Source: Bacteroidota bacterium (GTDB lineage: Bacteria > Bacteroidota > Bacteroidia > AKYH767-A > JAHEYN01). From it: 64,000 bases of DNA. The notes beneath the pieces were generated by a model, which made no database searches, was not told where the DNA came from, and worked only from the letters and a program-made list of their open reading frames with translations. How positions within the stretch are numbered: position 1 is the stretch's first letter; every line of letters begins with the position of its first letter. The stretch lies in the NCBI GenBank assembly GCA_023251555.1, contig JAHEYN010000007.1:1-64000 (forward strand), read 5' to 3'. Below are positions 38,553 to 58,116 of the stretch, one piece after another. A program made the translations under genes and the position numbers.

Positions 38553-38563
38553 CCCTCTGATTT

Positions 38564-40594: not shown

Positions 40595-40609
40595 AAACAA
40601 AATTTAATA

Positions 40610-40825: not shown

Positions 40826-41163
40826 AGCGTACCTCCACCCACTTTATTATTTTCAAACTATAACGCCTTCCGGACTTTTTGGCGCTGTACTATTTCCCGG
40901 CGGTCAGGGGGAATGTTCTCAGTTATAGTATCAGAGACGGGTGGCATTAATCCCATGGCCACGAAATCATCAGATCATTGTATATAGAAGGTTGTCCCCG
41001 CCTCAATATCTGACTTTCAGTTTAATTTTTATAAAAATATCGTTTTATGTCTTAAAATGCATAATATTTATGTGTATTATATTCAGACTTACAGCCATAG
41101 AGAAAATATGTTTTGTAAAAAGCGTATACCTGCAGGTAAATTGCTTTAAATAACAATCAAAAA
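40826..41163. other. 338-bp gap with second promoter-like block
   Basis: No convincing gene. The last 130 bp are AT-rich and end in the promoter-like block at 41086-41115, so transcription may restart here inside the array. Confidence 0.6.
41086..41115 (+). promoter_or_regulatory. Promoter-like block inside the array
   Basis: GACTTACAG (41086-41094), eight bases later AAAATATGTTTTG (41103-41115); the same elements as at 35200-35229, with one additional T in the -7-like box. It sits 48 nt before mini-protein copy 2. Confidence 0.5.
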
Positions 41164-41340
41164 ATGATAGGATTACAATTTGCAGACGGATTCAGGGATT
41201 TCGATATGTGGATCCTTGAAGGTACAGAAGTTCCCCCTTTATACCGTATTGCCATAAAAAACAGGGAAGTTAAACACCCGCCCAGAAAAGGAAACGGACA
41301 TGGGAAAAAAGAGAACTCCCGGAAAGTTATAAAAAAGTAA
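41164..41340 (+). CDS. Mini-protein with MIG-x-x-FADGF start, copy 2
   Basis: This 58-residue protein starts MIGLQFADGFRDFDMWILEG and ends in a basic tail (KHPPRKGNGHGKK, RKVIKK). It is a paralogue of the mini-protein at 40610-40825: identical at MIG, FADGF, DFD, W, L and G, while the tails share only composition. It has no signal peptide. It lies 48 nt after a promoter-like block and 30 nt before the next T9SS gene, so it may be the leader gene of a sub-operon. I do not recognise the family. Confidence 0.55.
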   Translation: MIGLQFADGFRDFDMWILEGTEVPPLYRIAIKNREVKHPPRKGNGHGKKENSRKVIKK

Positions 41341-41370
41341 TAATTGTTCCTCTTGGAAAGATATAAAGTA

Positions 41371-43371
41371 ATGACCAGGGTGATAATTTTCCTGGCATTC
41401 CCGTATTATTCGCATGCACAGTGGTCCACTAACTCAGCTGTAAATAATGTCCTGAGTGTTGCTGCCAACAACCAGTGGAACGTCGCGACCAACAACCAGT
41501 GGAAGCAGTTTATCATCAGCGACGGAAGCGGGGGAGCTATTGTCGTGTGGAAAGATGAACGTAACGGAACTACAAACGGGGATGTCTTTGCGCAGCGGAT
41601 AGATGTGAACGGTGTAGTGCAATGGACTACAGATGGGGTGGCAATCTGTACTCAGCCTTATGACCAGCTTTTTCCTACGCTCACAACCGATGGATCCGGC
41701 GGCGCGATCATTACCTGGTATGATTGCAGGAGATTCGCCAGCACTTCCACCACCGACATCTATGCACAGCGGATCAGTTCCGCCGGCGTGCCTCAATGGG
41801 CAACAGACGGGGTGGTTATCTGTACCCAGCTGGCCAATAAAAGCCAACAGTATCCGAACATCACAAGTGACGGAAGCGGAGGAGCTATCATTACCTGGTA
41901 TGGCCTGAGGAATTCCGGGCCCTTAACCAATGAAATTTATGCACAGCGCATTGACGGCAGCGGAAATGTCCTCTGGCCGGTCAACGGAGTGTCAATATGC
42001 TCGGCAACCAATAGCCAGTATTATCCCACTATTGCTTCTGACGGTGCGGGCGGAGCTATTATCTCCTGGTATGATTACCGCAGTTCCTCCAATTATGATA
42101 TTTACGCCCAGCGGGTGGATGGAAGCGGAGTGGTTCAATGGGCTACGGACGGGCTGGCGGTTTGCACTGCAATAAACAATAACTGGAAGCAAACAATGAT
42201 CAGCGATGGATCCGGGGGTGCAATTATAGTATGGCATGATTACAGAGCCGGTGCCACCGCCGATATCTATGCCCAGAGGGTGGATGCCTCAGGGGTAATG
42301 CAATGGACAACCGACGGAGTCGCAATATGTACCGCTGCCAATGACCAGAGTATCCCGACCATGATAACAGACGGATCGGGAGGATGTATCATTACATGGC
42401 ATGATGCGAGAGTCGCTGGCAACGACGATGTCTATGCCCAGCGGGTAAATGCATCGGGTGCAGTTCAGTGGACAGCAGACGGGATTGCAATATGTGCGGC
42501 AACAGGGAGTCAGCACAGTCCGACTATAATCAGCGACGGAAGCGGGGGTGCTTATATTACATGGTATGATCTCAGGAATGGAACCAACTGGGATGTTTAT
42601 GCCCAGAGAATAAACCTTTCGGGTGTTTCCCAGTGGATAACCGACGGCGTGGATATATGCACCGCAGCAGGCAACCAGTGGTATCCGCAGCTGGCGCCTT
42701 CAACATGCGGGGCTATTATTGCCTGGCATGATTACCGCGGGGGAACTTATAATGATATGTATGCCCAGCAGGTGAGTCCTGCCGGCGTCCTCGGTGGTAC
42801 ATGCCCCCTTCCCCTTGAATTGATTTTGTTTACCGCTCATTATTCAGGCCGGGAAAATATCCTCGAATGGAAAACCGGTTCCGAAATCAACAATGATTTT
42901 TTTGCTGTCGAAAGAAGTTATGACGGGAAAAATTTTGAGGAAATCGGAAAAGTAAGGGGGGCAGGAAACGCATCAGTTCCCCGGAACTACTCATTCACCG
43001 ATCCGCACGCCCTTTCCAAGAGAATGGAGGCCGGTGAAGAGGTATACTACCGCCTGAAGCAGGTTGACTTTGACGGGCGTTTCATATACTCCAATACAGT
43101 CTCAGTCACCCGGCCGCTCAATCATCAAATCAGTGTTTACCCCATTCCCTCCGGGAAGGAAGTAACCTGCTCGTTTTATTCAAGTGGAAAGTCAGAGGTG
43201 AAAATAGTCGTGTCAGATTTAATGGGGAGTATTCTCATGAGTGAAAATCGCTGTGTTGTGAGCGGCGAGAACAGCTTCCGCATGGATATATCCCGTCTCC
43301 CTCATGGAATATATTTCATCATTGTAAGTGATGGTTTAAAACAGGATCAGACAAGATTTATTAAAGAATAA
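41371..43371 (+). CDS. T9SS-exported protein with eight DGSGGA/YAQR repeats
   Basis: It has 666 residues from the ATG at 41371 (a TTG at 41344 is in frame but gives a poorer signal peptide). The signal is MTRVIIFLAFPYYSHAQ. Eight repeats of about 50-55 residues follow, each with S-D-G-S-G-G-A-I-I-x-W-x-D-x-R, then D-I-Y-A-Q-R and G-x-x-Q-W-x-T-D-G-x-x-I-C; the eighth is degenerate. The pattern suits a beta-propeller, but the family is not one I can name. The common linker (LPLELILFTAHYSGRENILEW, YYRLKQVDFDGRF) and a sorting domain (ISVYPIPSGKEVTCSFY, DLMGSILM, GIYFIIV, ends TRFIKE) close it. Confidence 0.85.
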   Translation: MTRVIIFLAFPYYSHAQWSTNSAVNNVLSVAANNQWNVATNNQWKQFIISDGSGGAIVVWKDERNGTTNGDVFAQRIDVNGVVQWTTDGVAICTQPYDQLFPTLTTDGSGGAIITWYDCRRFASTSTTDIYAQRISSAGVPQWATDGVVICTQLANKSQQYPNITSDGSGGAIITWYGLRNSGPLTNEIYAQRIDGSGNVLWPVNGVSICSATNSQYYPTIASDGAGGAIISWYDYRSSSNYDIYAQRVDGSGVVQWATDGLAVCTAINNNWKQTMISDGSGGAIIVWHDYRAGATADIYAQRVDASGVMQWTTDGVAICTAANDQSIPTMITDGSGGCIITWHDARVAGNDDVYAQRVNASGAVQWTADGIAICAATGSQHSPTIISDGSGGAYITWYDLRNGTNWDVYAQRINLSGVSQWITDGVDICTAAGNQWYPQLAPSTCGAIIAWHDYRGGTYNDMYAQQVSPAGVLGGTCPLPLELILFTAHYSGRENILEWKTGSEINNDFFAVERSYDGKNFEEIGKVRGAGNASVPRNYSFTDPHALSKRMEAGEEVYYRLKQVDFDGRFIYSNTVSVTRPLNHQISVYPIPSGKEVTCSFYSSGKSEVKIVVSDLMGSILMSENRCVVSGENSFRMDISRLPHGIYFIIVSDGLKQDQTRFIKE

Positions 43372-43395
43372 CTCTAAAATTTCAACCCTATTATT

Positions 43396-45078
43396 ATGAA
43401 AAAGAAAATCACATCCATTATTAGCCTGGCAGCGATGCTCCTGGGGTTGCACAATGCAAACTGTTTTGCACAGAACATCGCAGCCGGAAGGTATCATTCG
43501 CTGTTTGTCTGTACAGGCGGAACTGTTAATGCCTGCGGGTATGATAACCATGGCCAGCTGGGTGACGGGGGTCTTGTTGACCAGTTTGCGCCTGTCCAGG
43601 TAAGCGGGCTCACGGGCATTACGGCTGTTGCTGCAGGAATATACCATTCACTTTTTCTTAAAAGCGATGGTACCGTGTGGGCATGCGGATATAACCTCCA
43701 TGGTGAACTCGGCGATGGTACAAACAACCAGCATTCCACTCCTATACAGGTGAGCGGGCTTTCCAATATTGTCGCTATAGCGGCAGGATATTATCATTCC
43801 GTGTTTCTCAGGGGTGATGGCACAGTATGGGCATGCGGGTGGAATACCTACGGGCAGATTGGTGATGGGACTACCGGTGTTGACAGGTTGCTTCCCGTCC
43901 AGGTGAGCGGGCTTACAGGTATCATGGCGCTTGGAACGGGAGGCTATCACTCTCTTTATCTTAAAAATGATAATACTGCCTGGTCGTGCGGATACAATGG
44001 TTTCGGGCAGCTGGGGGACGGAACCAATGTTGCGAAATCCACACCCTTTCAGATAGCCACCCTTTCAGGAATTGTTCACCTGGCCGGAGGTGATAACCAT
44101 TCCCTTTTTGTTAAAAATGATGGAACAGCATGGTCCTGCGGATACAACAACCTTTACGGCCAGCTCGGCGACGGAACTAATACCAACAGGTATACTCCCG
44201 TGCCGGTAACGGGGCTTACAGGTATTTTAAAGTGCGCAACAGGAACATATAACTCTATGTTTGTGAAGAACGACGGTACCGTGTGGACATGTGGGAACAA
44301 TCAGTCGGGGCAGCTGGGCTATGCCAGCCCCGGCACAACTACCTGTCTGCAGGTTACCACGCTGTCCGGCATCCTGACCGTGGCGGGAGGATGGAACCAC
44401 TCCATATTTATTCAAAATACCGGCGCAGTATATACATGCGGACAGGATGGTGACGGGCAATTAGGCGATGGTAGTCCCGCTTCCAATAAAACAATTCCTG
44501 TGCAGGCGCTCACAACTTCATGCATTATCCTGCCTGTGAACCTTGTTTCTTTCAGCGGAAGAAACATGGGCGGTAAAAATATCCTCGAATGGAAAACCGG
44601 TTCCGAAATCAATAATGCTTGTTTTATTGTTGAACGAAGTTCAGATGAAAATAATTTTGAACCTGTAGGAAAAGTAAACGGGGCAGGCAATTCTATCGGT
44701 GAGAAAAATTATTCTTTTACTGATGAATACCCTTTCCCGGGAACAAATTATTACCGGTTGAAGCAGGTTGATTACGATGGCAACTTTTCTTATTCAAAAA
44801 CAATTTCTATAAAAACCAACGACAAACGACACACAATAAACACCTACCCTGTTCCATCTGATAAAGAATTAAACTATGAATTTTATTCGGAGAGAAATGT
44901 TGAAGCGATTATTACTGTGTTGGATGTGCTTGGAAACATTGTTTCACAAACACCTGTGAAAACAAAGCATGGGATGAATAAATCACAACTTGAGATTACA
45001 GGTTTATCAAAAGGGGTGTATTTTCTGAAAATGGATAATGGAATGGAACAATCACAAAATATATTTATTAAACAGTAA
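43396..45078 (+). CDS. T9SS-exported RCC1-repeat propeller protein
   Basis: This 560-residue protein has a signal peptide ending near NCFAQN. Seven RCC1-type repeats, about 50 residues each, follow with the hallmarks G-x-Y-H-S-L-F-L-K-x-D-G-T-V-W-A-C-G and G-Q-L-G-D-G-T. RCC1 forms a seven-bladed propeller, first known from the eukaryotic chromatin protein; secreted bacterial versions occur in many phyla. Next are the common linker (LPVNLVSFSGRNMGGKNILEW) and a sorting domain (INTYPVPSDKELNYEFY, DVLGNIVS, GVYFLKM, ends NIFIKQ). The last 440 nt are almost identical to those of the next genes. Confidence 0.92.
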   Translation: MKKKITSIISLAAMLLGLHNANCFAQNIAAGRYHSLFVCTGGTVNACGYDNHGQLGDGGLVDQFAPVQVSGLTGITAVAAGIYHSLFLKSDGTVWACGYNLHGELGDGTNNQHSTPIQVSGLSNIVAIAAGYYHSVFLRGDGTVWACGWNTYGQIGDGTTGVDRLLPVQVSGLTGIMALGTGGYHSLYLKNDNTAWSCGYNGFGQLGDGTNVAKSTPFQIATLSGIVHLAGGDNHSLFVKNDGTAWSCGYNNLYGQLGDGTNTNRYTPVPVTGLTGILKCATGTYNSMFVKNDGTVWTCGNNQSGQLGYASPGTTTCLQVTTLSGILTVAGGWNHSIFIQNTGAVYTCGQDGDGQLGDGSPASNKTIPVQALTTSCIILPVNLVSFSGRNMGGKNILEWKTGSEINNACFIVERSSDENNFEPVGKVNGAGNSIGEKNYSFTDEYPFPGTNYYRLKQVDYDGNFSYSKTISIKTNDKRHTINTYPVPSDKELNYEFYSERNVEAIITVLDVLGNIVSQTPVKTKHGMNKSQLEITGLSKGVYFLKMDNGMEQSQNIFIKQ

Positions 45079-45092
45079 CGAATAAATTAAAA

Positions 45093-46829
45093 ATGAAAAT
45101 CATAAAAAAAATGACACTTGCAAAATTCATTGCTTTGATATTTACCTGCTGCCTGTGCTCGGTTTCTACTGCACAAAAGATTGCGGGGGGAGTTTTTCAT
45201 TCTCTTGCCGTATGTAACAACGGAACGGTTATGAGCTGGGGGTATGATTCTAATGGTCAGCTTGGAGACGGGGGTACTAATACCGATAAAAGTTTTCCCG
45301 TTTCGGTAGTGGGACTAACAGGGATCACCGGGGTTGCGGGCGGATACTATCATTCATTAGCAGTTGATAATTCCGGCAATGTATGGAGTTGGGGAGATGA
45401 TGCCCGCGGGCAACTGGGTGACAATGCCACGCTTACTGCATACTCTACACCTGTGGCAGTGACATCGATATCCGGCGTTAGTGCTGTTTCTGCAGGATGG
45501 TATCACTCCATTGCCCTTGATAATACGGGTAAAGTGTGGGGATGGGGTTACGACCAGGTATATGGCGCAGTGGGTGATAATGCAGCACTGGTAAACCAGC
45601 CAACCCCGGTTGCAGTAAGTCCTGCGTGGGGCGTAAATACTATTACAGCTATTTCGGCCGGAGAATACCATTCTCTTGCACTTGACAATACGGGGAAGGT
45701 ATGGGCCTGGGGTATGGGCACTTACGGGCAATTAGGTAATGGGGGCAATTCGGTTCAACCTACTCCGGTAGCAGTCACTGCTTCCTGGGGGTCAAATACA
45801 ATCATTGCAATTGCTGCCGGAGGAACTCATTCCCTTGCACTTGATAATACGGGAAAGGTCTGGAGCTGGGGGCAGGATAACAATGGTCAGTTGGGCGATA
45901 ATGCAGCTCTCTCCAATCAATCTGTTCCTGTTGCCGTAAGCGTTCCCTGGCCTGGAACTATCACAGCTATTTCTGCGGGACAGTCCTCTTCTTTTGCTAT
46001 TGACAACACCGGCAAGGTCTGGGCCTGGGGTTTTGATCAGTTTTATGGCTCGCTGGGTGATAATGCAACCCTCGCAGATCAGCCTACGCCTGTTCCCGTG
46101 AGTATTGCATGGGGAACGAACACCATCACTGCTATTGCATCAGGAAGCAGGCATTCTCTTGTTATTGACAATACGGGTCTACTATGGGGATGGGGACAGG
46201 ATATAAACGGCCAGATAGGTGATAATATGTCGCTCACAAATCATTACACCCCTGTACTGACAGGGCTTTCCTGCACGGCACTGTCTGTTCAGCTGCTTTA
46301 TTTTAAAGGGAAGTATGAACAAAACACAGCACTCCTTGAGTGGAGCTCGGCAAATGAGATAAATAACGAATCATTTATTGTCGAACGCAGCAGATATGAA
46401 AATAATTTTGAACCTGTAGGAGAAGTAAAAGGAGCAGGTAATTCAACAGTTGAAAAAAACTATTCTTTCATTGATAAATACCCTTTCCCGGGAACAAATT
46501 ATTACCGGTTGAAGCAGGTTGATTACGATGGCAACTTTTCTTATTCAAAAACTATTTCAATAACAACCAGCGACAAACGACACACAATAAACATCTACCC
46601 TGTTCCATCCGATAAAGAGTTAAACTGTGAGTTTTATTCTTCCGAAAATTTTCTGGTGGATATTGCGGTAACGGATGTGCTCGGGAATACCATACTGCGG
46701 AAGGACTTAAAGGCAAAACAGGGGATGAATAAGGAAAAAATTGACATTGAAATTTTATCTCCCGGAATATATTTTCTGAAAATATATGATGGTATAAAAC
46801 AAGAACAGATGGAATTGATAAAACAATAA
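45093..46829 (+). CDS. T9SS-exported RCC1-repeat propeller protein, second copy type
   Basis: This 578-residue protein has a signal peptide ending near VSTAQ. Seven RCC1 repeats follow, here with the pattern H-S-L-A-L-D-N-T-G-K-V-W-x-W-G-x-x-x-x-G-Q-L-G-D-N and sometimes an inserted PVAVSxxWGxNTITAI strand. It is similar in type to the neighbour at 43396 but uses W-G instead of C-G blade ends, so the two are diverged paralogues. The linker (VQLLYFKGKYEQNTALLEW) and sorting domain (INIYPVPSDKELNCEFY, DVLGNTIL, GIYFLKI, ends MELIKQ) are nearly identical at DNA level to neighbouring genes. The 3' tail matches the remnant at 58024-58100. Confidence 0.92.
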   Translation: MKIIKKMTLAKFIALIFTCCLCSVSTAQKIAGGVFHSLAVCNNGTVMSWGYDSNGQLGDGGTNTDKSFPVSVVGLTGITGVAGGYYHSLAVDNSGNVWSWGDDARGQLGDNATLTAYSTPVAVTSISGVSAVSAGWYHSIALDNTGKVWGWGYDQVYGAVGDNAALVNQPTPVAVSPAWGVNTITAISAGEYHSLALDNTGKVWAWGMGTYGQLGNGGNSVQPTPVAVTASWGSNTIIAIAAGGTHSLALDNTGKVWSWGQDNNGQLGDNAALSNQSVPVAVSVPWPGTITAISAGQSSSFAIDNTGKVWAWGFDQFYGSLGDNATLADQPTPVPVSIAWGTNTITAIASGSRHSLVIDNTGLLWGWGQDINGQIGDNMSLTNHYTPVLTGLSCTALSVQLLYFKGKYEQNTALLEWSSANEINNESFIVERSRYENNFEPVGEVKGAGNSTVEKNYSFIDKYPFPGTNYYRLKQVDYDGNFSYSKTISITTSDKRHTINIYPVPSDKELNCEFYSSENFLVDIAVTDVLGNTILRKDLKAKQGMNKEKIDIEILSPGIYFLKIYDGIKQEQMELIKQ

Positions 46830-46862
46830 ATAAAGGATTAACAATTGTAAAAACAAAAGACA

Positions 46863-49800
46863 ATGAAAAAAATTATGAAACTCTTGTTTTCAGGTAAACA
46901 AACTGCATTTGCAGTGTGTTTATCTCTGTTTTCCTTTTCAGGAATTCAAAAAGCAAATGCGGCTGCTACTTCAACCATAGCCTCGGCTAACCCTGCAGTG
47001 CCTGCAGCCAATATTGTTCAGAGCTCGGTAAAACAATCCATATACAGTTTTACCATAGCTGTATCGGGAACCACTCCGGCTCCCAATTTAACGGGATTTA
47101 CTTTTACTACGGCAGGAACTTATCTGCTGACAGATGTTACCAAATTTCAGTTGTGGTCTAATACAATTAATGATTTGGCATCTGCATCACAGATCAGTAC
47201 GGATATTACAGCAACACTTGGTGCGGGCGCTCATCCTTTCGCTGCTTTTTCCCAGCCAATGGCCATAGGGAGTACTTACTATTTCTGGGTAACCACAGAT
47301 GTGGCAGCAGCAGCAGTACTTGCACGGACCATTACAGTTTCTGCAATTACAACTGCAAGCATTACAGTTTCTGCCGGAAGTAAAGCAGGTTCAGCATTTG
47401 CCGGAGGAGCACAAACGATAATTGCCCCGTTTACTTCAACTATCTCATCAGCTAACCCTGCAGTACCGGTAGCCAATATTCTTCAGGGTTCGGTAAAACA
47501 GCCCGTATACAGTTTTAATATAGATGTGGCCGGAACCGGTACAAATCCAAACCTGACCGGATTTAATTTTACTACCGCAGGAACTTATCTGGCAGCAGAT
47601 GTTACCAAATTTCAGCTGTGGTATAATACGATTAATGATTTGGCATCTGCATCACAGATCAGTACCAATATCACAACAACACTTGGCCCGGCCACACATA
47701 CATTTGCTGCTTTTTCGCAGACAATGGCTATAGGCGGCACTTACTACTTCTGGGTAACTACTGATGTTGCCTTAGCTGCCCTGATTACCAAAACCCTTAC
47801 CACCAATGCAATTACAACCGCCAACATAACTGTTTCCGGAGGAAATAAAGCAGGTACAGCATTTGCAGGGGGAACACAAACAATAACATCAACCTTTACT
47901 TCAACTATAGCATCATCTAATCCTGCAGTACCGGTTGCGAATCTTTCTCAGGGTTCGGTAAAACAACCCATATACAGTTTTAATATAGATGTGGCCGGAA
48001 CCGGTACAAATCCAAATCTTACGGGGTTTACTTTTACTACCAATGCCGGCTATGTGATCGCAGATGTTACCAAATTTCAGCTGTGGTACAATACGATTAA
48101 TGATTTGGCATCTGCATCACAGATCAGTACCAATATCACAACAACACTTGGCCCGGGTGCACACCCTTTCGCTGCTTTTTCCCAGGCAATGCCTATAGGA
48201 GCCACTTATTATTTCTGGGTAACCACAGATGTGGCTGCTATTGCCATACCCAACAATACCATAACCGTTGCGGCAATTACAACCGCAAGCACAACTATTT
48301 CTACCGGGGGGAAAGTGGGTACTCCTTTTATCGGCGGAACACAAACGATAACAGGGGCTCTTTCAACCCTCGCCTCGCCCAGTCCTTCACTGCCTGTAGC
48401 CAATATTTCCCAGGGTTCAGTAAAACAGCCCATATACTTTTTTAATATGGCTGTAAGCGGCAGTGGTGCAAATCCGGATTTAACCGGATTTAATTTTTCC
48501 AGCTATGGAACCTGTACAGCAACTGATATTTCAAAATTTCAGTTGTGGTATAATACGATTAATGACTTGGCATCTGCATCACAGATTAGTACAGATATTA
48601 CAGCAGCACTTGGTGCGGGTGCCCATACTTTTGCTGCATTCTCTCAGTCACTGCCTATAGGCAGCACTTGCTATTTCTGGGTAACAACAGATGTAAACTC
48701 AAATGCCACTCCTGCCCGTTATGTCGGAGTTAGTGCAATTACAACTGCAAACATTACATTTTCATACGGAGGTAAAACGGGTAGTGCTTCCATGAGTTTG
48801 TCACAAACGGTAATAGGTGCTCTTTCAACCCTCGCATCCCCTAATCCTGCAGTGCCTGCATCAAACATGTTCCCCGGTTCGGTAAAACAGCCCGTATACA
48901 ATTTTACATTAACCGTTGCCGGAAACAGTTCAAATCCAAATCTGACCGGGGTTACTTTTACCACCAATGCCGGTTATTTAGCTGCAGATGTTACAAAATT
49001 CCAATTGTGGTACAATACTACCAATAATTTGTCAACTGCCACGCAAATCAGCACAGACATTGTGACAACACTCGGCCCCGGCACACATTCTTTCGCTGCT
49101 TTTTCTCAGGCAATAGCTATAGGAGGTCCTTACTACTTCTGGATAACCACAGATGTAGACGCATCTCCCACACTGGCTAATACTGTTACCGTTGCTGCAA
49201 TGACAACTGCAGACCTCACCGTTTCATACGGTGCTAAATTAGGTGCTGCATTTATCGGAGGAACACAAACGATAGCGGCAACTATTTCAACCATTGCATC
49301 GGCTAATCCTGCAATACCGGCAGCATTTATAAATGCAGGCTCAGTGAAACAGCAGGTATACAGTTTTAATATAACTGTAAGCGGATCGGGAGCAGCCCCA
49401 AATTTGACCGGATTTACTTTTACCACCAACTCCGGTTATCTGGCAACTGATATTTCAAAATTTCAGTTGTGGTATAGTACTGTTAATAATTTAGCAACTG
49501 CCACGCAGATCAGTACGGACATTGTAACTACGCTTGGTCCGGGTGCACATTCCTTCGCTGCCTTTTCCCAGGCAATGCCTGTAGGAGGTCCTTACTATTT
49601 CTGGGTAACTACAGATGTGGCCACGGCCCTTGGCGGTAATTATATTACCGTTGCTGCAATTACAACTGCAAACATTACTGTTTCTTCCGGAGGTGTGGCG
49701 GGGACTGCATATGCCGGAGGAGCACAAACGATTCTTGCCATCCCTGCTGTAAATGGTACAGCTGCTCCCTTTGAAAAAACATATCCATACATGGTTGGTA

Positions 49801-51599
49801 ATGGGTGGACCCAGAACTCTAATTGCCTGGAAACTCCCGATAATTACCTGGTGCTTTTTGGATCATCTACCATATTCGGCTGGTCAGATTACATCATAAA
49901 ACTAAGCAATAACGGCAGTTTGGTGTGGGCAAGAGGATACACCAATCCTAATATAATCAATACATGGCAAAACTATGGGATTCAGCTTAGCAGCGGAGAT
50001 TATATTGTATGCGGCAATCCGGGTACTGCAAGTCCTGATGAATTGGCGATGTTAATGAAAGTTAACAGTACCGGTGATGTTTTGTGGGCAAAGCGTTATG
50101 GGGGAATTCTGCAATCTGTAGGACCATGGAAACGGGATGGTATAGGGGAAGTGGTTGAAACAGCTGGCGGTCTTGTGTTTGGCGGATATACTACTCAGTA
50201 TTCCTGGGATAATACGTATCATGATTATACCTTAATAAAAACAGATTTAAATGGAAATGTAATCTGGTCATTTACCGGTTACATAAACGGTTTCAATAGT
50301 TATGACGGTATTAATTATCTGAGAGAATCCAATACCGGCGGCTTTTATATGGCCGGGTACCTATCGGCAATAGTTCAATGGGTAGGTAAAACAGATGCGA
50401 ATGGCAATGTGCTTTGGTCGAATACATATTCAAATCATAACTTGTTGTATGGAATAGAAGCAACCTCTGATGGCGGTTGCATGATTTTGGGAAGTAGTAG
50501 TACAATAGCTGCGGGTAATTATGCTACTTTAATGAAGTTATCATCTACGGGGAGCGTGGAATGGGCTAACGGATATAAAGGGGATGAAGGGAATGACGTT
50601 GTTCAAACCACTGATGGCAGTTATGTGGTTTGCGGCAGTGTTACTGCTGCCGGTGGATTGGGTAATAGTGACGGATGGGTATTTAAAACCGATCCTAATG
50701 GTGCATTATTATGGTCTAAACTTTATGGTGGATCGAAGAATGATTATTTCAATAGTGTGACAGAAACTGCGGATGGAGGTTATTTTTTAGGCGGGAGGTC
50801 AGACACATGGTCCCCTGGGAGTAATGGGGCAGGTGCATGGTCAATGAAAATAAATCCGGATGGAACTAACCCTGCTGCCTGTAACACCACCACTTATGCT
50901 CCTGCGGTTGTTGATTATGCAGCAACAATTAGTGTTGCCCCGTCTGGTCTTATTCAGGTCAGCACTGCTATTACACCCACGGTTGAGACTTATACAGCAA
51001 ATACAGTTGCCCCGCAGGAAAGTTGCTGCTCGGGCACCTGCACTCAGGTATTGCCGGTGGCATTGGTTTCCTTTACAGGAAAGAATTCAGGAGAAACCAA
51101 TGTGATGGAATGGCTTACTGTTTCAGAAACCAGGAGTGATTATTTTGTTGTTGAAAGAAGCCGGGATGGAAAAACATTTGAACCTGTAGGAAAAGTAAAA
51201 GGAGCAGGGAATTCAACAGTTGAAAAAACTTATTCTTTTACGGATGAACATCCTTTCTCAGGAATAAATTATTACCGCCTGAAGCAGGTTGATTACGATG
51301 GAAACTTTTCTTATTCCCAAACTGTTTCTGTAACAACAATGCATGAATCAGCAATAATAAAAATTTATCCTGTTCCGTCAGGAAAAGAATTAAGCTGCGA
51401 GTTTTATTCGGATGAAAATTCTGAAATAAAAATTTATGTAACGGATGTGCTCGGGAATACTATGCTCCGCAAGGACTTAAAGGCAAAACAAGGATTGAAT
51501 AAGGATAAAATTGATATTGAAAAACTCCCCCATGGTATTTATTATCTTGAGATGAATGACAGGACAAGGCAGAGCCAGTTGAAGTTTGTGAAAGAGTAA
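46863..51599 (+). CDS. T9SS-exported protein: six 155-residue repeats plus seven-repeat propeller
   Basis: This 1578-residue protein has a signal peptide ending near KANAA. The first half (about 37-960) is six tandem repeats of about 155 residues, each opening STIASANPAVPAANI-like and containing GSVKQPVYSF, NLTGFTFTT, VTKFQLWYNT, ASQISTDI, AAFSQ and YYFWVTTDVA. They look like the beta-sandwich domain often placed before neuraminidase-type propellers (BNR-associated N-terminal domain). The second half has seven T-D-G-G-Y-type repeats (about 975-1340), then the common linker (LPVALVSFTGKNSGETNVMEW) and a sorting domain (IKIYPVPSGKELSCEFY, DVLGNTML, GIYYLEM, ends LKFVKE). It is the largest array member. 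Confidence 0.9.
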   Translation: MKKIMKLLFSGKQTAFAVCLSLFSFSGIQKANAAATSTIASANPAVPAANIVQSSVKQSIYSFTIAVSGTTPAPNLTGFTFTTAGTYLLTDVTKFQLWSNTINDLASASQISTDITATLGAGAHPFAAFSQPMAIGSTYYFWVTTDVAAAAVLARTITVSAITTASITVSAGSKAGSAFAGGAQTIIAPFTSTISSANPAVPVANILQGSVKQPVYSFNIDVAGTGTNPNLTGFNFTTAGTYLAADVTKFQLWYNTINDLASASQISTNITTTLGPATHTFAAFSQTMAIGGTYYFWVTTDVALAALITKTLTTNAITTANITVSGGNKAGTAFAGGTQTITSTFTSTIASSNPAVPVANLSQGSVKQPIYSFNIDVAGTGTNPNLTGFTFTTNAGYVIADVTKFQLWYNTINDLASASQISTNITTTLGPGAHPFAAFSQAMPIGATYYFWVTTDVAAIAIPNNTITVAAITTASTTISTGGKVGTPFIGGTQTITGALSTLASPSPSLPVANISQGSVKQPIYFFNMAVSGSGANPDLTGFNFSSYGTCTATDISKFQLWYNTINDLASASQISTDITAALGAGAHTFAAFSQSLPIGSTCYFWVTTDVNSNATPARYVGVSAITTANITFSYGGKTGSASMSLSQTVIGALSTLASPNPAVPASNMFPGSVKQPVYNFTLTVAGNSSNPNLTGVTFTTNAGYLAADVTKFQLWYNTTNNLSTATQISTDIVTTLGPGTHSFAAFSQAIAIGGPYYFWITTDVDASPTLANTVTVAAMTTADLTVSYGAKLGAAFIGGTQTIAATISTIASANPAIPAAFINAGSVKQQVYSFNITVSGSGAAPNLTGFTFTTNSGYLATDISKFQLWYSTVNNLATATQISTDIVTTLGPGAHSFAAFSQAMPVGGPYYFWVTTDVATALGGNYITVAAITTANITVSSGGVAGTAYAGGAQTILAIPAVNGTAAPFEKTYPYMVGNGWTQNSNCLETPDNYLVLFGSSTIFGWSDYIIKLSNNGSLVWARGYTNPNIINTWQNYGIQLSSGDYIVCGNPGTASPDELAMLMKVNSTGDVLWAKRYGGILQSVGPWKRDGIGEVVETAGGLVFGGYTTQYSWDNTYHDYTLIKTDLNGNVIWSFTGYINGFNSYDGINYLRESNTGGFYMAGYLSAIVQWVGKTDANGNVLWSNTYSNHNLLYGIEATSDGGCMILGSSSTIAAGNYATLMKLSSTGSVEWANGYKGDEGNDVVQTTDGSYVVCGSVTAAGGLGNSDGWVFKTDPNGALLWSKLYGGSKNDYFNSVTETADGGYFLGGRSDTWSPGSNGAGAWSMKINPDGTNPAACNTTTYAPAVVDYAATISVAPSGLIQVSTAITPTVETYTANTVAPQESCCSGTCTQVLPVALVSFTGKNSGETNVMEWLTVSETRSDYFVVERSRDGKTFEPVGKVKGAGNSTVEKTYSFTDEHPFSGINYYRLKQVDYDGNFSYSQTVSVTTMHESAIIKIYPVPSGKELSCEFYSDENSEIKIYVTDVLGNTMLRKDLKAKQGLNKDKIDIEKLPHGIYYLEMNDRTRQSQLKFVKE
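46971..49740 (+). repeat. Six tandem ~460-bp repeats inside the gene
   Basis: Unit starts lie near 46971, 47436, 47901, 48363, 48823 and 49287, so periods are 460-465 bp and the frame is kept. Units are highly similar, more so between 2 and 3. Such arrays readily gain or lose units by slippage or unequal recombination. Confidence 0.85.
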
Positions 51600-51641
51600 C
51601 AATAATTAATATTAACAATTATAATAATGGGAGGAAAAATT

Positions 51642-53417
51642 ATGAAAAAGATTAGTTCATCACACAGTATGATTCGTGCAGCGATCATCGCTTGCCTGTT
51701 ACCGGTTTTTTCACCGGCGCAAACCTTTACAAACCTCTACACGGCGACAACCAATCCCAGCACGGGCTCTGATGTGGCCCTGGCGGTTACTGCCGATGCT
51801 ACTGCAATTTATGTTGCAGGTTATGACCTCACCAATGGTACAGACTACCAGTGGCGTATTGAAAAGCGTGATCTCGCTACCGGCGGTCTGATTGGCGGTT
51901 TCGGAACAGGAGGGGTGGTAACATCCAACCCCAGTACCGGCACTGATAATGCCACTGCCATCACAGTTGATGCGACAGGGATATACATAGCCGGGCAGGA
52001 TGGCAACGGGGGATATGAATGGTACATGGAGAAACGGAATCTTACCACCGGTGCGCTGATATGGTCAAAAACCAGTAATCCAAGCGCAGGCGATGACGGG
52101 GCTACCGCCATTGCGGTGGATGGCAGCGGAGTTTACATAGCAGGATTTGACGACATCCTGGTAGGGACCAATTACCAATGGAGGATAGAGAAGCGTGATT
52201 TGACAACAGGGAATCTTATAGGCGGTTTTGGGACAGGGGGTGTGATAACAAGTAATGTGAGCACAAGTTATGATTATGCATATGGGATGACCATCGATGC
52301 CAGCGGGATTTATGTTGCGGGAGTTGATTATAACCCGAACTATGAGTGGCGCATCGAGAAACGGGATTTGACCACAGGGGCCATTATATGGACACAGTAC
52401 AGCAATCCGACCACGGGTTCTGATAAAGCCTGGGCAATTGCAGCCGATGCGACCGCAATTTATATTGCAGGATATGATTTTGTTGTGGGAACTGATTGGG
52501 AATGGCGTATTGAAAAGCGTGATTTGACCACAGGAAACCTGATTGGCGGCTTCGGAACAGGAGGGGTAGTTAAAAGCAATCCGAGCGGAGCTCTCGATAA
52601 TGCTGTGGGAATAACTGTCAATGCCGCCGGTATTTTTGTGGCAGGTTACGATAACATACCCACGAACAATGAATGGAGGGTAGAGAAGCGGGATCTTACT
52701 ACCGGTGCGCTTCTTTGTAATGTTACAGTCAATCCGGCCCTTGCCGATGCCGACAGGACTACCGGAATTACCTCTGACGGAACGGGGATTTATGTGGTGG
52801 GATACGATGATAGCCAGAGCAGTTTTGATGCTCAGTGGCGCATAGAGAAATATGACTTATGCGGAACGCTCCCTGTCAAACTGCTTTCCTTTGACGGGAG
52901 AAATGAGGAAAGAGATATCCGGTTGCTGTGGACTACCGCCACAGAACAGAACAATGACTATTTCAGTGTTGAAAGGAGTTCTGATGGACAAATATTTGAA
53001 GAAATCGGAACAAAAAAAGGAGCAGGTAATTCAACAGTTGAAAAAACTTATTCTTTTACTGATGAACATCCTTTCTCGGGAATCAATTATTACCGGTTGA
53101 AGCAGGTTGATTACGATGGCAATTTCACGTACTCAAAAATTATTTCTATAACAACCGGCGACAAACGACAAACAATAACCATCTATCCTGTTCCATCCGA
53201 TAAAGAATTAAACTGCGAGTTTTATTCGGATGAAAATGCCATGGTAAATATTGCGGTAACGGATGTGCTCGGTAATACTATACTCCGGAAGGACTTAAAG
53301 TCAAAACATGGGATGAATAAGGAGAATCTTGATATCAGTAACTTATCACAAGGGGTGTATTTTCTGAGAATAGATAATGGAATTCAACAATCGCAAATAA
53401 AATTTATAAGACAATAA
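51642..53417 (+). CDS. T9SS-exported protein with seven WRIEKRDL repeats
   Basis: It has 591 residues from the ATG at 51642. An in-frame ATG at 51627 begins ATGGGAGGAAAA, and that GGGAGG is better read as a Shine-Dalgarno-like stretch for the second ATG. The signal peptide ends near VFSPAQ. Seven repeats of about 55 residues follow, each with S-T-G-x-D-x-A-x-A-I, I-Y-V-A-G-Y-D, W-R-I-E-K-R-D-L-T-T-G and often G-G-F-G-T-G-G-V; I cannot name the family, but the length and strand pattern suit a propeller. The common linker (LPVKLLSFDGRNEERDIRLLW) and sorting domain (ITIYPVPSDKELNCEFY, DVLGNTIL, GVYFLRI, ends IKFIRQ) follow. Confidence 0.85.
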   Translation: MKKISSSHSMIRAAIIACLLPVFSPAQTFTNLYTATTNPSTGSDVALAVTADATAIYVAGYDLTNGTDYQWRIEKRDLATGGLIGGFGTGGVVTSNPSTGTDNATAITVDATGIYIAGQDGNGGYEWYMEKRNLTTGALIWSKTSNPSAGDDGATAIAVDGSGVYIAGFDDILVGTNYQWRIEKRDLTTGNLIGGFGTGGVITSNVSTSYDYAYGMTIDASGIYVAGVDYNPNYEWRIEKRDLTTGAIIWTQYSNPTTGSDKAWAIAADATAIYIAGYDFVVGTDWEWRIEKRDLTTGNLIGGFGTGGVVKSNPSGALDNAVGITVNAAGIFVAGYDNIPTNNEWRVEKRDLTTGALLCNVTVNPALADADRTTGITSDGTGIYVVGYDDSQSSFDAQWRIEKYDLCGTLPVKLLSFDGRNEERDIRLLWTTATEQNNDYFSVERSSDGQIFEEIGTKKGAGNSTVEKTYSFTDEHPFSGINYYRLKQVDYDGNFTYSKIISITTGDKRQTITIYPVPSDKELNCEFYSDENAMVNIAVTDVLGNTILRKDLKSKHGMNKENLDISNLSQGVYFLRIDNGIQQSQIKFIRQ

Positions 53418-53437
53418 ATAATTTTATTATTAAAACC

Positions 53438-55306
53438 ATGAAACAAATTTATACAATCGTTCAATTATTCTTTTTAGTAGTACTTATTGCTCCCACATGC
53501 ATTAGCCAAACGACATTTCAAACAGCTTATACTATTCCAATTTCGACAAACCCTCCTTATTCCACTGCTACCATAAAGAATACCACAGATGGGGGCTATA
53601 TTATTGGAAGTGCTGGATCAATCAGTGGTTATAATAATCCGGTAATTGCAAAATTTGATGCAGCATTTAACCTGCAGTGGACATGTTCTTTTGGATATTA
53701 TGGACAACAGCATGGCTTTGGTTCAGTTGCACAGACAACTGATGGGGGGTATATGTGCTTTTTTGATTATGGGTCTGAGCGAGTTGCAAAAGTAAGCAAT
53801 AATGGTACCTTTTTATGGGCAAAGTCTGTTGGAGTAAGTATCGCTGGAGCCGGGCCACTTTGGGATGGCATGGCAACTACAGGTGGCTATGTGATGGTAG
53901 GAAGGGATCAAGCTAATTTAGTTACTGCTCCATACATTTTATTAACTAAGTTAAATGATAATGGATCCAAATTATGGGACAAATGTTATAAATGTAATTC
54001 TATTAGTAATACAGCCGTTGCAACAGGAAAATCTGTAAAACAAACAACAGATGGTGGATTCATAATAGCAGCAGATTATTATTATTCTGCAACTACTCAA
54101 TATGATATTATTCTTATAAAAACAAATTCTGTTGGAGATACTCTTTGGACAAAAATGTACGGTGGTACAGGTAATGATTATAGTAAATCTGTAATGTCCC
54201 TTGCTAATGGCGAATATGCAGTAGGAGGGTATACTACTAGTTTTGGATCAGGAGCCTATGATATTTATTTAATACATACTTCATCGAATGGAAGCATACA
54301 ATGGGCGAAAACCTACGGTGGTACTGGTAGTGAAATTCCAACTTCATTCCATCAAACTACTGATGGTGGATATATTTTTTCCGGAAGAACTACTGGTCCA
54401 GGCAATTCCTATAATGGATTCCTTATCAAGACAGATGCGGTTGGAGACACTCTATGGACAAAAACATACGGAACAACAGCATGGCACGAAAATGATGATG
54501 TACTTCAAACTACTGATGGCGGTTATGCAATAGCAGCTCTTGCATGGACAGATTTGGATATTATAAAAACGGATATCAATGGGGTTACTACAGGATGTTA
54601 TGGAGTTGGCTCTTTTACCATCAACAGTTTTTCACCAACGGTAAGTCCTGGATCTTTTGCAAGTGTTGTTGCTTCTACTTCCAATCCTATAGATCTTACC
54701 GCCTCCTTCAGTACCTTCCCATTAACACCAACTTCATATACCCCTGGATGTACTACATTACCCATAGAAATAATTTCTTTTACTGCTACTAAAACTGCGA
54801 ATGAAAAAGTTGAATTAAATTGGGCAACAGCAAGTGAAATAAACAATAATTGCTTTTCCATAGAACGAGGTACAGATGGGAATAATTTTGAAACAATAGG
54901 AAAAGTAAAGGGGGCCGGAAATTCAACCGGTGAAAAAAAATATTCGTTTACTGATGAACATCCATTCTCAGGAATAAATTATTACCGCCTCAAACAGATT
55001 GATTTTGATGGCAACTATACTTATTCAAAAATTATTTCTGTAACAACAATTAACCATCAACAATTAACCATTTATCCCGTTCCGTCCGATAAAGAATTGA
55101 ACTGCGAGTTTTATTCGGATGAAAATTCCCTGGTAAATATTGCGGTAACGGATGTGCTCGGGAATATCATACTCCGGAAGGACATAAAGGAAAAACATGG
55201 GATGAATAAGGAGAAGCTTGATATCAGCAACTTGTCACAAGGAGTGTATTTTCTGAAAATAGATAATGGAATGCAACAATCGCAAATCAAGTTTATAAAA
55301 CAATGA
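53438..55306 (+). CDS. T9SS-exported protein with seven TDGGY-type repeats
   Basis: This 622-residue protein has a signal peptide ending near CISQT. Seven repeats of about 50 residues follow with N/Q-T-T-D-G-G-Y-x-I...G, L-I-K-T-N-x-x-G-D-T-L-W-T-K-x-Y-G-G, the same type as in 35283, 46863 (second half) and 58117. The first two thirds are distinctly AT-rich, while the 3' end has the composition and near-identical sequence of its neighbours, hinting at a different origin for the two parts. The linker is LPIEIISFTATKTANEKVELNW; the sorting domain has TIYPVPSDKELNCEFY, DVLGNIIL, GVYFLKI and ends IKFIKQ. The next gene follows after an extragenic repeat. Confidence 0.88.
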   Translation: MKQIYTIVQLFFLVVLIAPTCISQTTFQTAYTIPISTNPPYSTATIKNTTDGGYIIGSAGSISGYNNPVIAKFDAAFNLQWTCSFGYYGQQHGFGSVAQTTDGGYMCFFDYGSERVAKVSNNGTFLWAKSVGVSIAGAGPLWDGMATTGGYVMVGRDQANLVTAPYILLTKLNDNGSKLWDKCYKCNSISNTAVATGKSVKQTTDGGFIIAADYYYSATTQYDIILIKTNSVGDTLWTKMYGGTGNDYSKSVMSLANGEYAVGGYTTSFGSGAYDIYLIHTSSNGSIQWAKTYGGTGSEIPTSFHQTTDGGYIFSGRTTGPGNSYNGFLIKTDAVGDTLWTKTYGTTAWHENDDVLQTTDGGYAIAALAWTDLDIIKTDINGVTTGCYGVGSFTINSFSPTVSPGSFASVVASTSNPIDLTASFSTFPLTPTSYTPGCTTLPIEIISFTATKTANEKVELNWATASEINNNCFSIERGTDGNNFETIGKVKGAGNSTGEKKYSFTDEHPFSGINYYRLKQIDFDGNYTYSKIISVTTINHQQLTIYPVPSDKELNCEFYSDENSLVNIAVTDVLGNIILRKDIKEKHGMNKEKLDISNLSQGVYFLKIDNGMQQSQIKFIKQ

Positions 55307-55313
55307 AAATATC

Positions 55314-55375
55314 TTTAATCCGCCTTCGCGTTTCGCTACGGCGGACAAGATGGTCCCGGGCTCACCCCGGGGTTA
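55314..55375. repeat. Extragenic palindromic repeat inside the propeller array
   Basis: The first hairpin module (TCCGCC...GGCGGA) is that of the units at 29.3 and 31.5 kb, but the following hairpin is CCCGGG-CTCA-CCCCGGG. It interrupts the tight gene spacing of the array and may end or stabilise transcripts. Confidence 0.8.
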
Positions 55376-55422
55376 ACACCAATTCATAGATTTTAAAAAC
55401 CCCTCAAAGCAGTTCATGAATT

Positions 55423-57459
55423 ATGAAAACATATACAAAAACATTACTCGTCATACTTGTTATTTATTATTTATTTCCTCTTATCCCTTCCGCCCAGCCA
55501 ACTCTTCTCTGGGCAAAACGAATGGGTGGAACTACTACAGATGCCGGTTATTCCATCGCGGTGGACGGCAGCGGTAATGTTTTTACCACAGGGAAATTTT
55601 TAGGTACAGCTAACTTGGATCCCGGAGCAGGTACTTACAATCTGACTGATCCGGCCGGAGGTGATGTTTTTGTCAGCAAGTTAGATGGAGCGGGTAACTT
55701 TGTTTATGCCAAAAGCATGGGGGGGGCAGGTCAGGGTGCTGGTTATTCCATCGCATTGGACGGAAGCGGCAATATTTATACTACAGGGATTTATGATGGT
55801 ACAGCCGACTTTGACCCCGGAGCGGGTACTTATAATCTGACTTTCGCAGGGAGTTTAGATGTTTTCGTCAGCAAACTGGATGCTTCCGGTAATTTTTTAT
55901 GGGCGAAAAGCTTAGGCGGAACAAGTGATGACAGAGGTTATTCCCTTGCAGTGGATGGCAGCAGTAATGTTTATACCACGGGGTATTTTTATGGTACAGC
56001 CGACTTCGACCCGGGAGCAGGTACTTATAATCTGAATGCTGCAATGGGAGGTTCAGGGTATCCTGATATTTTCATCAGCAAGTTAGATGCATCAGGAAAC
56101 TTTGCATGGGCAAAAAGCATCGGCGGAACATATTATGATTATGGCAGGGCTATCGCGGTGGACGGCAGCGGCAATGTCTATACTGTTGGGTCTTTTTATG
56201 GTACAGTCGACTTCGACCCCGGAGCAGGCACTTACAATCTTACCTCATCGAACTATGATGTTTTCGTCAGTAAGCTGGATGGATCGGGTAACTTTATGTG
56301 GGCAAAAAACATGGGAGGAACAGGTGCCGATGACTGTTGGGCCATAGATGTAGATGCCAGTGGTGATATTTACATTGCCGGAAAATTTGTAGGTGTAGCC
56401 GATTTTGACCCCGGAGCAGGTACTTACAATCTCACTTCTATGGGTACTGATGATATTTTTCTTAGCAGGTTAGATGGATCGGGTAATCTTGTATGGGCGG
56501 TAAGTGCGGGTGGAAATTTAAATGATTACGCTCATTCCGTCACTTTGGATGGTATCGGAAATGTGTATATCATGGGCGATCAGTACAGCGCCACGGTGGA
56601 CTACGACCCTGGTGTGGCCACATTTAATGTGACTAATACGGGTACCGAAGCCAGCTTTATTGCCCGGTATGATATTAACGGCAATTTTCTATGTGCCATG
56701 ACCATTACACCCGGGCATAACGAAACGAATTTTGGTGACAGGCATATAGCTGCGAGCGGTAATAGTGTGTGGGTTACAGCGTCTTTTGATAATGCCCTCG
56801 CTGATTTTGACCCCTGTCCTGCTAATTACTATCCTGGTTTATATGGCAATACGGATGTTTATATAGCAAAGTATGATTTCACCAACTGCAATTGCACGGT
56901 TCTGCCAGTCGAATGGTTTTCATTCACTGGAAGAAATGAAGGAGACCAAAATATTTTGGAATGGACAACTGCAAGTGAAATTAATAACGATCATTTTTCT
57001 GTTGAACGAAGTGACGAGGGGCATAATTTCGAAAAAATAGGCAATGTAAGAGGCATAGTCAACACAAATGAAAAACAAAACTATTCATTCATAGATACAA
57101 ATCCGTTTTCAGGAATAAATTATTATCGCCTGAAACAAACTGACTATAACAGCAAATTCACTTATTCAAAAATCATTTCAATCAACAATCAACAAATCAA
57201 CAAATCAGTAATCAGCATTTATCCCAATCCTTCTGATGGTGAGTTTACTGTTTCCGGTTTGTTGCACCCGGTTATCATAAAAATCTATAACATTTTAGGG
57301 CAGGAAGTTTACTCCATAGGGATGGACCTCCATAACTATAACCGGCAATCCGTTTCTTTGGGAGAAAGCGAAAGTTTTAAACTTAATTTAAATAGTTTGC
57401 CGGCAGGAATGTATTTCTTAAAAGCAGGCAATGCACAAATAAAATTTATTAAGCAGTAA
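55423..57459 (+). CDS. T9SS-exported protein with seven DPGAGTYNL propeller repeats
   Basis: This 678-residue protein has a signal peptide ending near IPSAQ. Seven repeats of about 60 residues follow, containing W-A-K-S-x-G-G, A-V-D-G-S-G-N-V-Y-T-x-G, F-D-P-G-A-G-T-Y-N-L and V-F-V-S-K-L-D-x-S-G-N-F, a variant of the SBBP-type propeller. The common linker (LPVEWFSFTGRNEGDQNILEW, YYRLKQTDYNSKF) is followed by a sorting domain of the YPNP form (ISIYPNPSDGEFTVSG, NILGQEVY, GMYFLKA, ends IKFIKQ), which is diverged from the near-identical neighbours. It follows an extragenic repeat, so it may have its own promoter. Confidence 0.88.
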   Translation: MKTYTKTLLVILVIYYLFPLIPSAQPTLLWAKRMGGTTTDAGYSIAVDGSGNVFTTGKFLGTANLDPGAGTYNLTDPAGGDVFVSKLDGAGNFVYAKSMGGAGQGAGYSIALDGSGNIYTTGIYDGTADFDPGAGTYNLTFAGSLDVFVSKLDASGNFLWAKSLGGTSDDRGYSLAVDGSSNVYTTGYFYGTADFDPGAGTYNLNAAMGGSGYPDIFISKLDASGNFAWAKSIGGTYYDYGRAIAVDGSGNVYTVGSFYGTVDFDPGAGTYNLTSSNYDVFVSKLDGSGNFMWAKNMGGTGADDCWAIDVDASGDIYIAGKFVGVADFDPGAGTYNLTSMGTDDIFLSRLDGSGNLVWAVSAGGNLNDYAHSVTLDGIGNVYIMGDQYSATVDYDPGVATFNVTNTGTEASFIARYDINGNFLCAMTITPGHNETNFGDRHIAASGNSVWVTASFDNALADFDPCPANYYPGLYGNTDVYIAKYDFTNCNCTVLPVEWFSFTGRNEGDQNILEWTTASEINNDHFSVERSDEGHNFEKIGNVRGIVNTNEKQNYSFIDTNPFSGINYYRLKQTDYNSKFTYSKIISINNQQINKSVISIYPNPSDGEFTVSGLLHPVIIKIYNILGQEVYSIGMDLHNYNRQSVSLGESESFKLNLNSLPAGMYFLKAGNAQIKFIKQ

Positions 57460-57487
57460 AGACCAATTACCCTTGAGTAATTCTCGG

Positions 57488-57979
57488 ATGAAGACTATTC
57501 CCCCCAATATTATTGCTTTTCTTATCTGTTGTCTTTTGTCAACTGTCAAATCATATGCTCAGTCCGAAGGATTCCTCAGTATTGCAAATGTACCCGGGAT
57601 AGTGCAGGAAAAATTCAAACTGCTGTACCCCGAACAAGATATTGCCAGGGCAGCATGGGAATATGAGAATGGTGGCTATGAGGCATACATAAAAGATAAA
57701 AAAGGCACTACAGGCGATGTGATGTTTTTTAACACAGAGGGGAAATTAGAGTACCATATTTTTACGGAAGGCAGCATCCGTACGGGTACAGAGCGGGAGA
57801 TAAATGCAGAAGCATTGCCCGAAGCTATCCGGATACATCTGTCAGGAACATACAATGGAAAAATTATCCGTGCATCGGTCGTTAAGTTTGACCTGGAAGA
57901 AAAAACAAAAGGATACAGGGTAATGCTTGAGGATATACAGCTTCTATATGACAGCGAAGGCAGGCTGCAAAAGCAGTGA
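57488..57979 (+). CDS. Secreted PepSY-like protein
   Basis: It has 163 residues from the ATG at 57488 (a TTG at 57473 is in frame but no better). The signal peptide is MKTIPPNIIAFLICCLLST onward, ending near SYAQS. Two tandem units of about 60 residues resemble PepSY-like domains: VPGIVQEKFKLLYPEQDIARAAWEYENGGYEAYI and LPEAIRIHLSGTYNGKIIRASVVKFDLEEKTKGYRVML share the pattern of an amphipathic helix, then a W/V-x-x-E/K strand and a Y-E/R strand. Such proteins occur in the periplasm of Bacteroidota, and their function is unknown. It has no sorting domain, unlike all its neighbours. Confidence 0.65.
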   Translation: MKTIPPNIIAFLICCLLSTVKSYAQSEGFLSIANVPGIVQEKFKLLYPEQDIARAAWEYENGGYEAYIKDKKGTTGDVMFFNTEGKLEYHIFTEGSIRTGTEREINAEALPEAIRIHLSGTYNGKIIRASVVKFDLEEKTKGYRVMLEDIQLLYDSEGRLQKQ

Positions 57980-58023
57980 TGAGGAACACACAAAATATAA
58001 CATGGAATAAGCAATTCGCAATT

Positions 58024-58100
58024 CGATATTACGAATTTATCACAAGAAAATATTGCCTGAATATAAATAACAAGAACAGATAGAATTAATAAAACAATAA
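58024..58100 (+). pseudogene. Decayed 3' end of a T9SS sorting domain gene
   Basis: The sequence matches the 3' end of the gene at 45093-46829: it reads CAAGAACAGATAGAATTAAT then AAAACAATAA, giving KQEQIELIKQ and a stop, against KQEQMELIKQ. The upstream part resembles the tails of other array genes (ATTTATCACAAG...). A stretch in between is missing and the frame is broken. It is what remains of a deleted or converted array member. Confidence 0.75.
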
Positions 58101-58116
58101 TCCGATAATTTCTATT

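Follow-up and report, generated by a model that had tools for sequence, protein, structure and literature searches.

A tandem array of genes with a common C-terminal part

The window analysed here is a 64,000-nt stretch of contig JAHEYN010000007.1 (C16 in our numbering) from the draft genome of a Bacteroidota bacterium (GCA_023251555.1; 2.84 Mb in 55 contigs), which we refer to as G000 where it is compared with other genomes. An open reading frame (ORF) finder placed eleven large genes in tandem in this window, all on the + strand. Their N-terminal parts (heads) differ widely, and their C-terminal parts (tails) carry a predicted export tag of the type IX secretion system (T9SS). The evolution of these tails is the subject of this report.

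35283..63450, + strand: tandem array of g35, g38, g41, g43, g45, g46, g51, g53, g55, g58 and g61; complete ORFs with their own starts, and a full-length tail-profile match in 11/11.

An earlier note on this DNA had drawn attention to g43, g45, g46, g51 and g53. The ORF finder returned all five at the same coordinates, except that g51 starts at 51627, 15 nt before the 51642 given there. Each of the eleven genes is a complete ORF with a start codon of its own, and the array therefore does not have the form of a silent-cassette system, with one expressed locus and truncated silent copies.

The tails start near an LP motif and are about 549 nt long (181-182 codons). A profile constructed from them gave a full-length match to each of the eleven. 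All five genes of the earlier note pass the curated cut-offs of both PF18962 and TIGR04183 at the C-terminus, and g35 and g58 also pass that of PF18962. g61 gave no sorting-domain match in the PF18962 and TIGR04183 searches, yet it matches the tail profile throughout. The common C-terminal part comprises a predicted fibronectin/Ig-like domain and, behind it, the T9SS type A sorting domain; this second domain is the predicted export tag. A structure model of the g53 tail consists of two all-beta domains, residues 1-97 and 104-182 (mean predicted local distance difference test score (pLDDT) 85.9, predicted template modelling score (pTM) 0.55). When the Protein Data Bank was searched with this model, tandems of fibronectin type III domains were retrieved; latent PorU (6za2) ranked third with an E value of 1.7e-5, but with a TM score of 0.37 and a root-mean-square deviation of 17.9. 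The genome also encodes T9SS machinery, namely SprA (a single ORF of 2438 aa) and eight places of the PorP family over the cut-off. Membership of the tails in a sorting-domain family is ordinary; what is unusual is how they evolve as a set.

The heads had been described as unrelated propellers, which is only partly right and overstated for this window. Both g43 and g45 have RCC1 propellers, and these heads are related (40% at the amino acid level over 392 residues). The heads of g46 and g53 match at 31% over 261 aa, and the g46 head has no Pfam propeller match at E<=0.001, only PF14873. Most of the g46 head consists of six repeats of about 155 codons (46970-49736; spacing 462-465 nt; 61-87% identical to reference copies). 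Matches of g51 to DUF1294 and RNF220 in Pfam were discarded as uninformative.

Mosaic tails in the window

The 3' ends of the five genes had also been called near-identical. They are not near-identical as wholes, since over 181-182 codons the five tails are only 66.5-77.0% identical in pairs (dS 0.67-1.26, dN 0.18-0.34), and the last 431 nt of g53 match the other four tails at 85, 78, 81 and 74%, the 81% match covering no more than about 350 nt. The exact blocks that they share, silent positions included, are nevertheless real, and the identity among the five tails is a patchwork of blocks ranging from 44 to 100%. The block GTAACGGATGTGCTCGG, reported to be common to four genes, has exact copies at 46668, 51438, 53256 and 55145 and at no other place, and it turned up in 0 of 100 shuffles. 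A second 20-mer is common to four tails at 44761, 46512, 51282 and 53100. The longest exact run between window tails is 76 nt (44726/46477, g43 and g45). Silent codon identity is 0.60-0.72 in the ten pairs of the five tails; the remaining 45 pairs average 0.447, and codon usage predicts 0.40. This bears out the earlier remark on shared silent positions. The other six tails, said to have diverged, are indeed only 44-58% identical to the five, but g41 has a 37-nt exact run with g43 (42854/44576). The five tails are as follows.

44530..45078, + strand: g43 tail, a mosaic of g41-like, g45-like and g51/g53-like blocks (block identities; triplet break near 44622); PF18962 and TIGR04183 over cut-off.
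46281..46829, + strand: g45 tail, g43-like before about 46607, then g51/g53-like (triplet g43 to g53, p=2e-5).
51051..51599, + strand: g46 tail, 67-71% identical to the other four (triplet g45 to g53, p=0.19, not significant).
52869..53417, + strand: g51 tail, g46-like before about 53114, then g53-like (triplet p=2e-5).
54758..55306, + strand: g53 tail, with two predicted beta-sandwich domains (structure model).

Along the tail, the identity of g43 to g45 is about 44-62% early, 97-100% around the 76-nt run, then about 50%, and later rises again. Where g43 and g45 are least alike, g41 and g43 are 82-85% identical. g51 and g53 are 85-95% identical from about 53150 to the end of the tail. Three tracts were delimited from silent codons.

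44722..44856 with 46473-46607, + strand: tract g43/g45, containing the 76-nt exact run; silent identity 0.95 inside and 0.53 outside; p=1e-4.
44569..44685 with 42847-42963, + strand: tract g43/g41, containing the 37-nt exact run; silent identity 0.81 inside and 0.30 outside; p=0.0022, not significant after correction.
53211..53336 with 55100-55225, + strand: tract g51/g53; silent identity 0.97 inside and 0.62 outside; p=0.0017, corrected 0.093.

In the silent-codon scan of the 55 window pairs, the g43/g45 tract survived correction (corrected p 0.005). The pairwise homoplasy index (PHI) gave p=0.001 for the five tails and 0.0005 both when g41 was added to them and when all eleven were taken; the remaining six gave 0.54. 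When all 990 ordered triplets were scanned for a switch of partner, many reached the permutation floor of 5e-5 (corrected 0.049), whereas the 120 triplets wholly outside the five never fell below 0.0036. Eight chosen triplets were rerun with 50,000 permutations. Three of them stayed at the new floor of 2e-5, with breaks near 44622 in g43 (from g41-like to g45-like), 46607 in g45 and 53114 in g51; others gave p=0.001, 0.003 and 0.03. Trees of the left, middle and right parts of nine of the eleven tails (g38 and g61 were left out) mostly conflict. The middle data reject both other trees, and the right data reject the left (0.0035) and middle (0.022) trees; the left data reject the middle tree (0.043) but not the right one (0.059). 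The breakpoints occur inside either tail domain and also near the linker, so that shuffling of whole domains alone fails to explain the mosaics.

The heads of g43 and g45 provide an internal comparison. Silent identity in their homologous RCC1 heads is 0.42, close to the chance value of 0.40, against 0.95 in the tail tract. In g58 and C49_47042, a control pair whose heads are long and homologous, silent identity is 0.49 for the head and 0.52 for the tail, and this pair was congruent in the quartet test. Tail divergence of the amount expected from an old duplication, with one tree for heads and tails, was named in advance as the outcome that would speak against recombination; silent divergence and break-point tests gave a different picture.

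The spacers downstream of the stop codons appear unrelated by eye. Three further observations were made between the genes of the array.

57473..57979, + strand: short gene inside the array, with a PepSY-like match below the curated cut-off and no sorting tail.
40594..40668 and 41148..41222: two 75-nt copies with 80% identity, both within the 749 nt that separate g38 from g41.
55307..55422: spacer 3' of g53, a GC-rich stretch resembling an inverted repeat (CCGCC...GGCGG), by eye.

Tails across the genome and in relatives

The profile built from these tails found about a hundred two-domain tails in the whole genome. A first set of 62 tails was drawn from tail-similarity matches; since this choice could favour neighbours, the census was repeated with the stretches around the remaining two-domain tails added, giving 106 tails, and the outcome was unchanged. 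Only tails with a profile match spanning both domains were counted. Among the 42 adjacent tandem pairs, mean silent identity is 0.508, against 0.426 under permutation, and exceeds all 5000 permutations (p<=0.0002). Pairs at least 70% identical make up 15/204 of those within 25 kb and 4/5266 of those on different contigs. For 26 of the 106 tails the best partner is no more than 25 kb away (3.9 expected), and six of the eight tail pairs with exact runs of at least 40 nt (8/5565) are also within 25 kb. In a silent scan of the 1891 pairs of the first 62 tails, four pairs survived correction, three on contig C32 and the pair on C9 described below, and p<0.01 was found in 14/149 near pairs and 18/1742 others. 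Exchange also reaches beyond neighbours: the tails of C48_29055 and C52_76606, on different contigs, are 87-88% identical.

Tail and head relationships rarely coincide. Of the 97 genes for which a head homologue exists, six have the same gene as best partner for tail and for head, and in 26 the best tail partner is any one of the head homologues. Three of six DNA quartets (Q1-Q3) reject the head topology.

Fresher cases lie on C32 and C9. The heads of an adjacent gene pair on C32 have FG-GAP and TIG matches in one gene and NHL matches in the other. Their tails start at 43-73% identity in 30-nt steps; then, within the tail, a stretch of 385 nt without a mismatch sets in 352 nt before the stop codon ends and extends to 32 nt past that codon. 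A third C32 tail has a 118-nt exact run in common with both tails of the pair. The C9 gene pair, without a head match at E<=1e-5, has a 499-nt exact run ending 99 nt past the stop. Past the stop, the shared sequence is the 3' end of a convergent gene, which is whole beside C9_85656 and present only as an orphan scrap beside C9_81110; this scrap suggests the direction of copying. Simple duplication does not give rise to abrupt steps of this kind within homologous sequence. The ORFs around the C9 tail genes, and a lone fragment in another array, were also recorded.

C9:84093-85655 and C9:87789-89348, both + strand: two related ORFs (520 and 519 aa; 52% identity), located next to the C9 tail genes or convergent with them; C9_81110 is followed by a 39-aa scrap from the 3' end of the first.
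C6:42262-42429, - strand: lone 60-residue tail fragment (profile positions 123-182) within the C6 array, which looks as if it were the remnant of a gene lost through recombination.

For sister strains, no genome of the same genus was found, and G001, of the same family, had no head match. The g51 head found a match in three of 40 other genomes, the best being G031 at 45% amino acid identity. A scan of genome contigs returned 14 loci, none of them a near relative (28-45% at the amino acid level, matching chiefly through the tail), and among 27 loci (L010-L036) no DNA-level match was found between any two tail-bearing ORFs of one locus. A 431-nt tail query gave matches in 19 of 41 other genomes of the order, all short (<=158 nt). 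Tail DNA is much closer within the genome than to these 41 relatives, which are distant and without clear orthologues of the genes. In G021, 150 sorting-domain places were among the matches listed.

Stretches of three of these 41 genomes (G001, G015 and G031) were compared. Twenty ORFs in 8 stretches were taken from G015, which belongs to another family. Matches of 100% in its loci L110, L112 and L115 arose because the 200 nt added downstream reached into the following gene, and they were discarded. In 40-codon steps before the tail, L108_p_2837 shows mostly 57-84% identity to L109_m_2166 (the last 240 codons being at 75-84%), against 46-61% within the tail; with its neighbour L108_p_8001 it is 36-72% identical before the tail and 81-88% in the tail (triplet p<=5e-5). 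By these identities L108_p_2837 is a head/tail chimaera. The neighbour pair of locus L111, also in G015, has tails 76% identical and heads that match over 26 residues only. Both cases indicate that the process is not confined to the genome studied here, although its strength is unequal between genomes: neighbour bias of tails is clear in G000 and G015, weak in G001 and absent from the G031 stretches taken.

Probable gene conversion of export tags and its alternatives

The tails are mosaics with sharp internal breakpoints, they are most alike between neighbours, and they are decoupled from their heads. We consider it likely that these features reflect recurrent gene conversion confined to the shared tail, in which neighbouring genes appear to overwrite each other's tails. 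Many of the tails stand as direct tandem repeats, and homologous recombination would repeatedly copy patches of one tail's DNA onto another, mostly a near neighbour. Patches would terminate within the tail or close to either of its edges, where homology stops; the cargo heads would for this reason escape overwriting, the 5' bound of conversion being the end of homology with the heads. We infer a non-reciprocal exchange carried out by the general homologous recombination machinery. It would then follow from repeated homology as a by-product, the tails being kept alignable by purifying selection, and call for no dedicated mechanism.

Several results weigh against this interpretation. Only one of the 55 window pairs survives correction in the silent scan (g51/g53 at 0.0017, g41/g43 at 0.0022 and g45/g51 at 0.0044 fail), and in the wider scan of 1891 pairs the g43/g45 tract does not survive either (corrected 0.113). 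Two of the eight triplets rerun are not significant, that of the g46 tail among them. Quartets Q4-Q6 were inconclusive, including the one with two window genes. In protein-level approximately unbiased (AU) tests with 62 tails, five of eleven head pairs named were completed, of which one was rejected and four were not; two further head pairs were already clades. The quick tree search behind these tests performed badly, trees held to a topology scoring better than free ones in two cases; their outcome was not relied on and the DNA quartets were run instead. In G031, 23 tails in 11 stretches gave no DNA match and no similarity between neighbours, and in G001, 20 tails in 9 stretches gave only three weak matches, all between neighbours of one locus. 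The C9 gene scrap is the sole hint that the exchange has a direction, and some of the traces ascribed to tail conversion would also be left by crossovers that move whole heads.

That last process is the alternative to be taken most seriously, though we hold it to be doubtful as the main account; it may operate as a second process. Crossovers in shared tails would gain, lose or move whole heads, and new heads would be joined to resident tails. The low agreement of best tail and head partners (only 6/97 genes) fits it, as does the switch of L108_p_2837 at the head/tail border. The two-ended patches inside window tails and the mid-tail break on C32 are more simply explained by partial tail conversion. 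Two-ended internal patches favour conversion, and the break in G015 fits either conversion or head moves. The earlier note had proposed both that recombination homogenises the sorting domain and that it lets new propellers be joined to an existing tail. Homogenisation of the tails is well supported by PHI, the triplets, the segment trees, the steps from about 60% to 100% identity inside tails elsewhere in the genome and the discordance of heads and tails; joining of new propellers is only compatible with the data, because tail conversion can leave the same trace. It seems unlikely to us that sorting tails are recombination handles in the stronger sense, in which open modular T9SS arrays have their heads shuffled, gained and lost through crossovers in a tail that at the same time secures export, and fast cargo turnover is evolved and not a by-product.

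Whole-gene tandem duplication, with heads diverging faster than tails, would account for neighbours being most similar and for the homology of the g43 and g45 heads. We regard it as very improbable, given the abrupt identity steps within homologous tails and the conflict among trees of tail thirds; moreover, close tail pairs carry heads of different families, and the best head relatives are located elsewhere.

The chance that the mosaics are assembly artefacts, repeats having been misjoined or collapsed in the draft, is smaller again. The draft is in 55 contigs, the exact tracts on C9 and C32 exceed typical short read length, and contigs C32 and C44 both start inside T9SS arrays; the tails of these two contigs cluster together in the tail tree, and they may be neighbouring contigs split at repeats. 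The exact runs between window tails, however, are at most 76 nt and their flanks differ, the tracts span a range of divergence, and the independent genome G015 has its chimaera at 81-88% identity. Similar DNA without recombination, as the product of codon bias and of purifying selection acting on the sorting signal, is scarcely credible: the YYRLKQVD region, conserved at the protein level, does yield short DNA matches, related genomes included, but codon usage predicts a silent identity of 0.40 where tracts reach 0.95-1.00, and conservation should not depend on neighbourhood.

Patchwise conversion with mosaic products is familiar from pilE/pilS and vlsE, where segmental gene conversion serves antigenic variation and the variable part is converted from silent copies; in the array it is the constant export tag that is converted, and between complete genes. 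The Arg-gingipain genes of Porphyromonas gingivalis were reportedly the subject of work by Nakayama in 1997. For surface genes of P. gingivalis, domain rearrangement and gene conversion are discussed in the part of PMC5266723 cited here. As in the array, genes of T9SS-exported surface proteins share modules and exchange them by recombination; according to the same part of that source, what varies between strains there is adhesin and catalytic modules of few genes. In the array, a 3' sorting tail is homogenised within one genome while the heads are largely non-homologous. In Rhs genes the core and the variable C-terminal tip are decoupled, and homologous recombination in the core has been proposed (PMC2935791, in the portion cited). 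Constant and variable parts thus evolve separately in both systems, with recombination in the constant part; as far as that portion goes, the array differs in that the order is reversed, the constant part being 3', and in that displaced tip fragments are not the rule, all window genes being complete ORFs. Conversion among T9SS sorting tails, or conversion confined to the tails of non-homologous cargo, was not found reported in the open-access literature, subscription papers not being covered.

If tails homogenise independently of heads, trees and orthology calls for T9SS substrates that are based on the C-terminus would mislead in such genomes, and the sequence of a tag would mirror its genomic neighbourhood as much as its cargo. 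Export tags are not freely interchangeable across species, as stated in the part of PMC11285876 cited here, and a process keeping one genome's tags alike could for that reason carry functional meaning. It could also give Bacteroidota a concrete route to equip new secreted heads with a working export tag.

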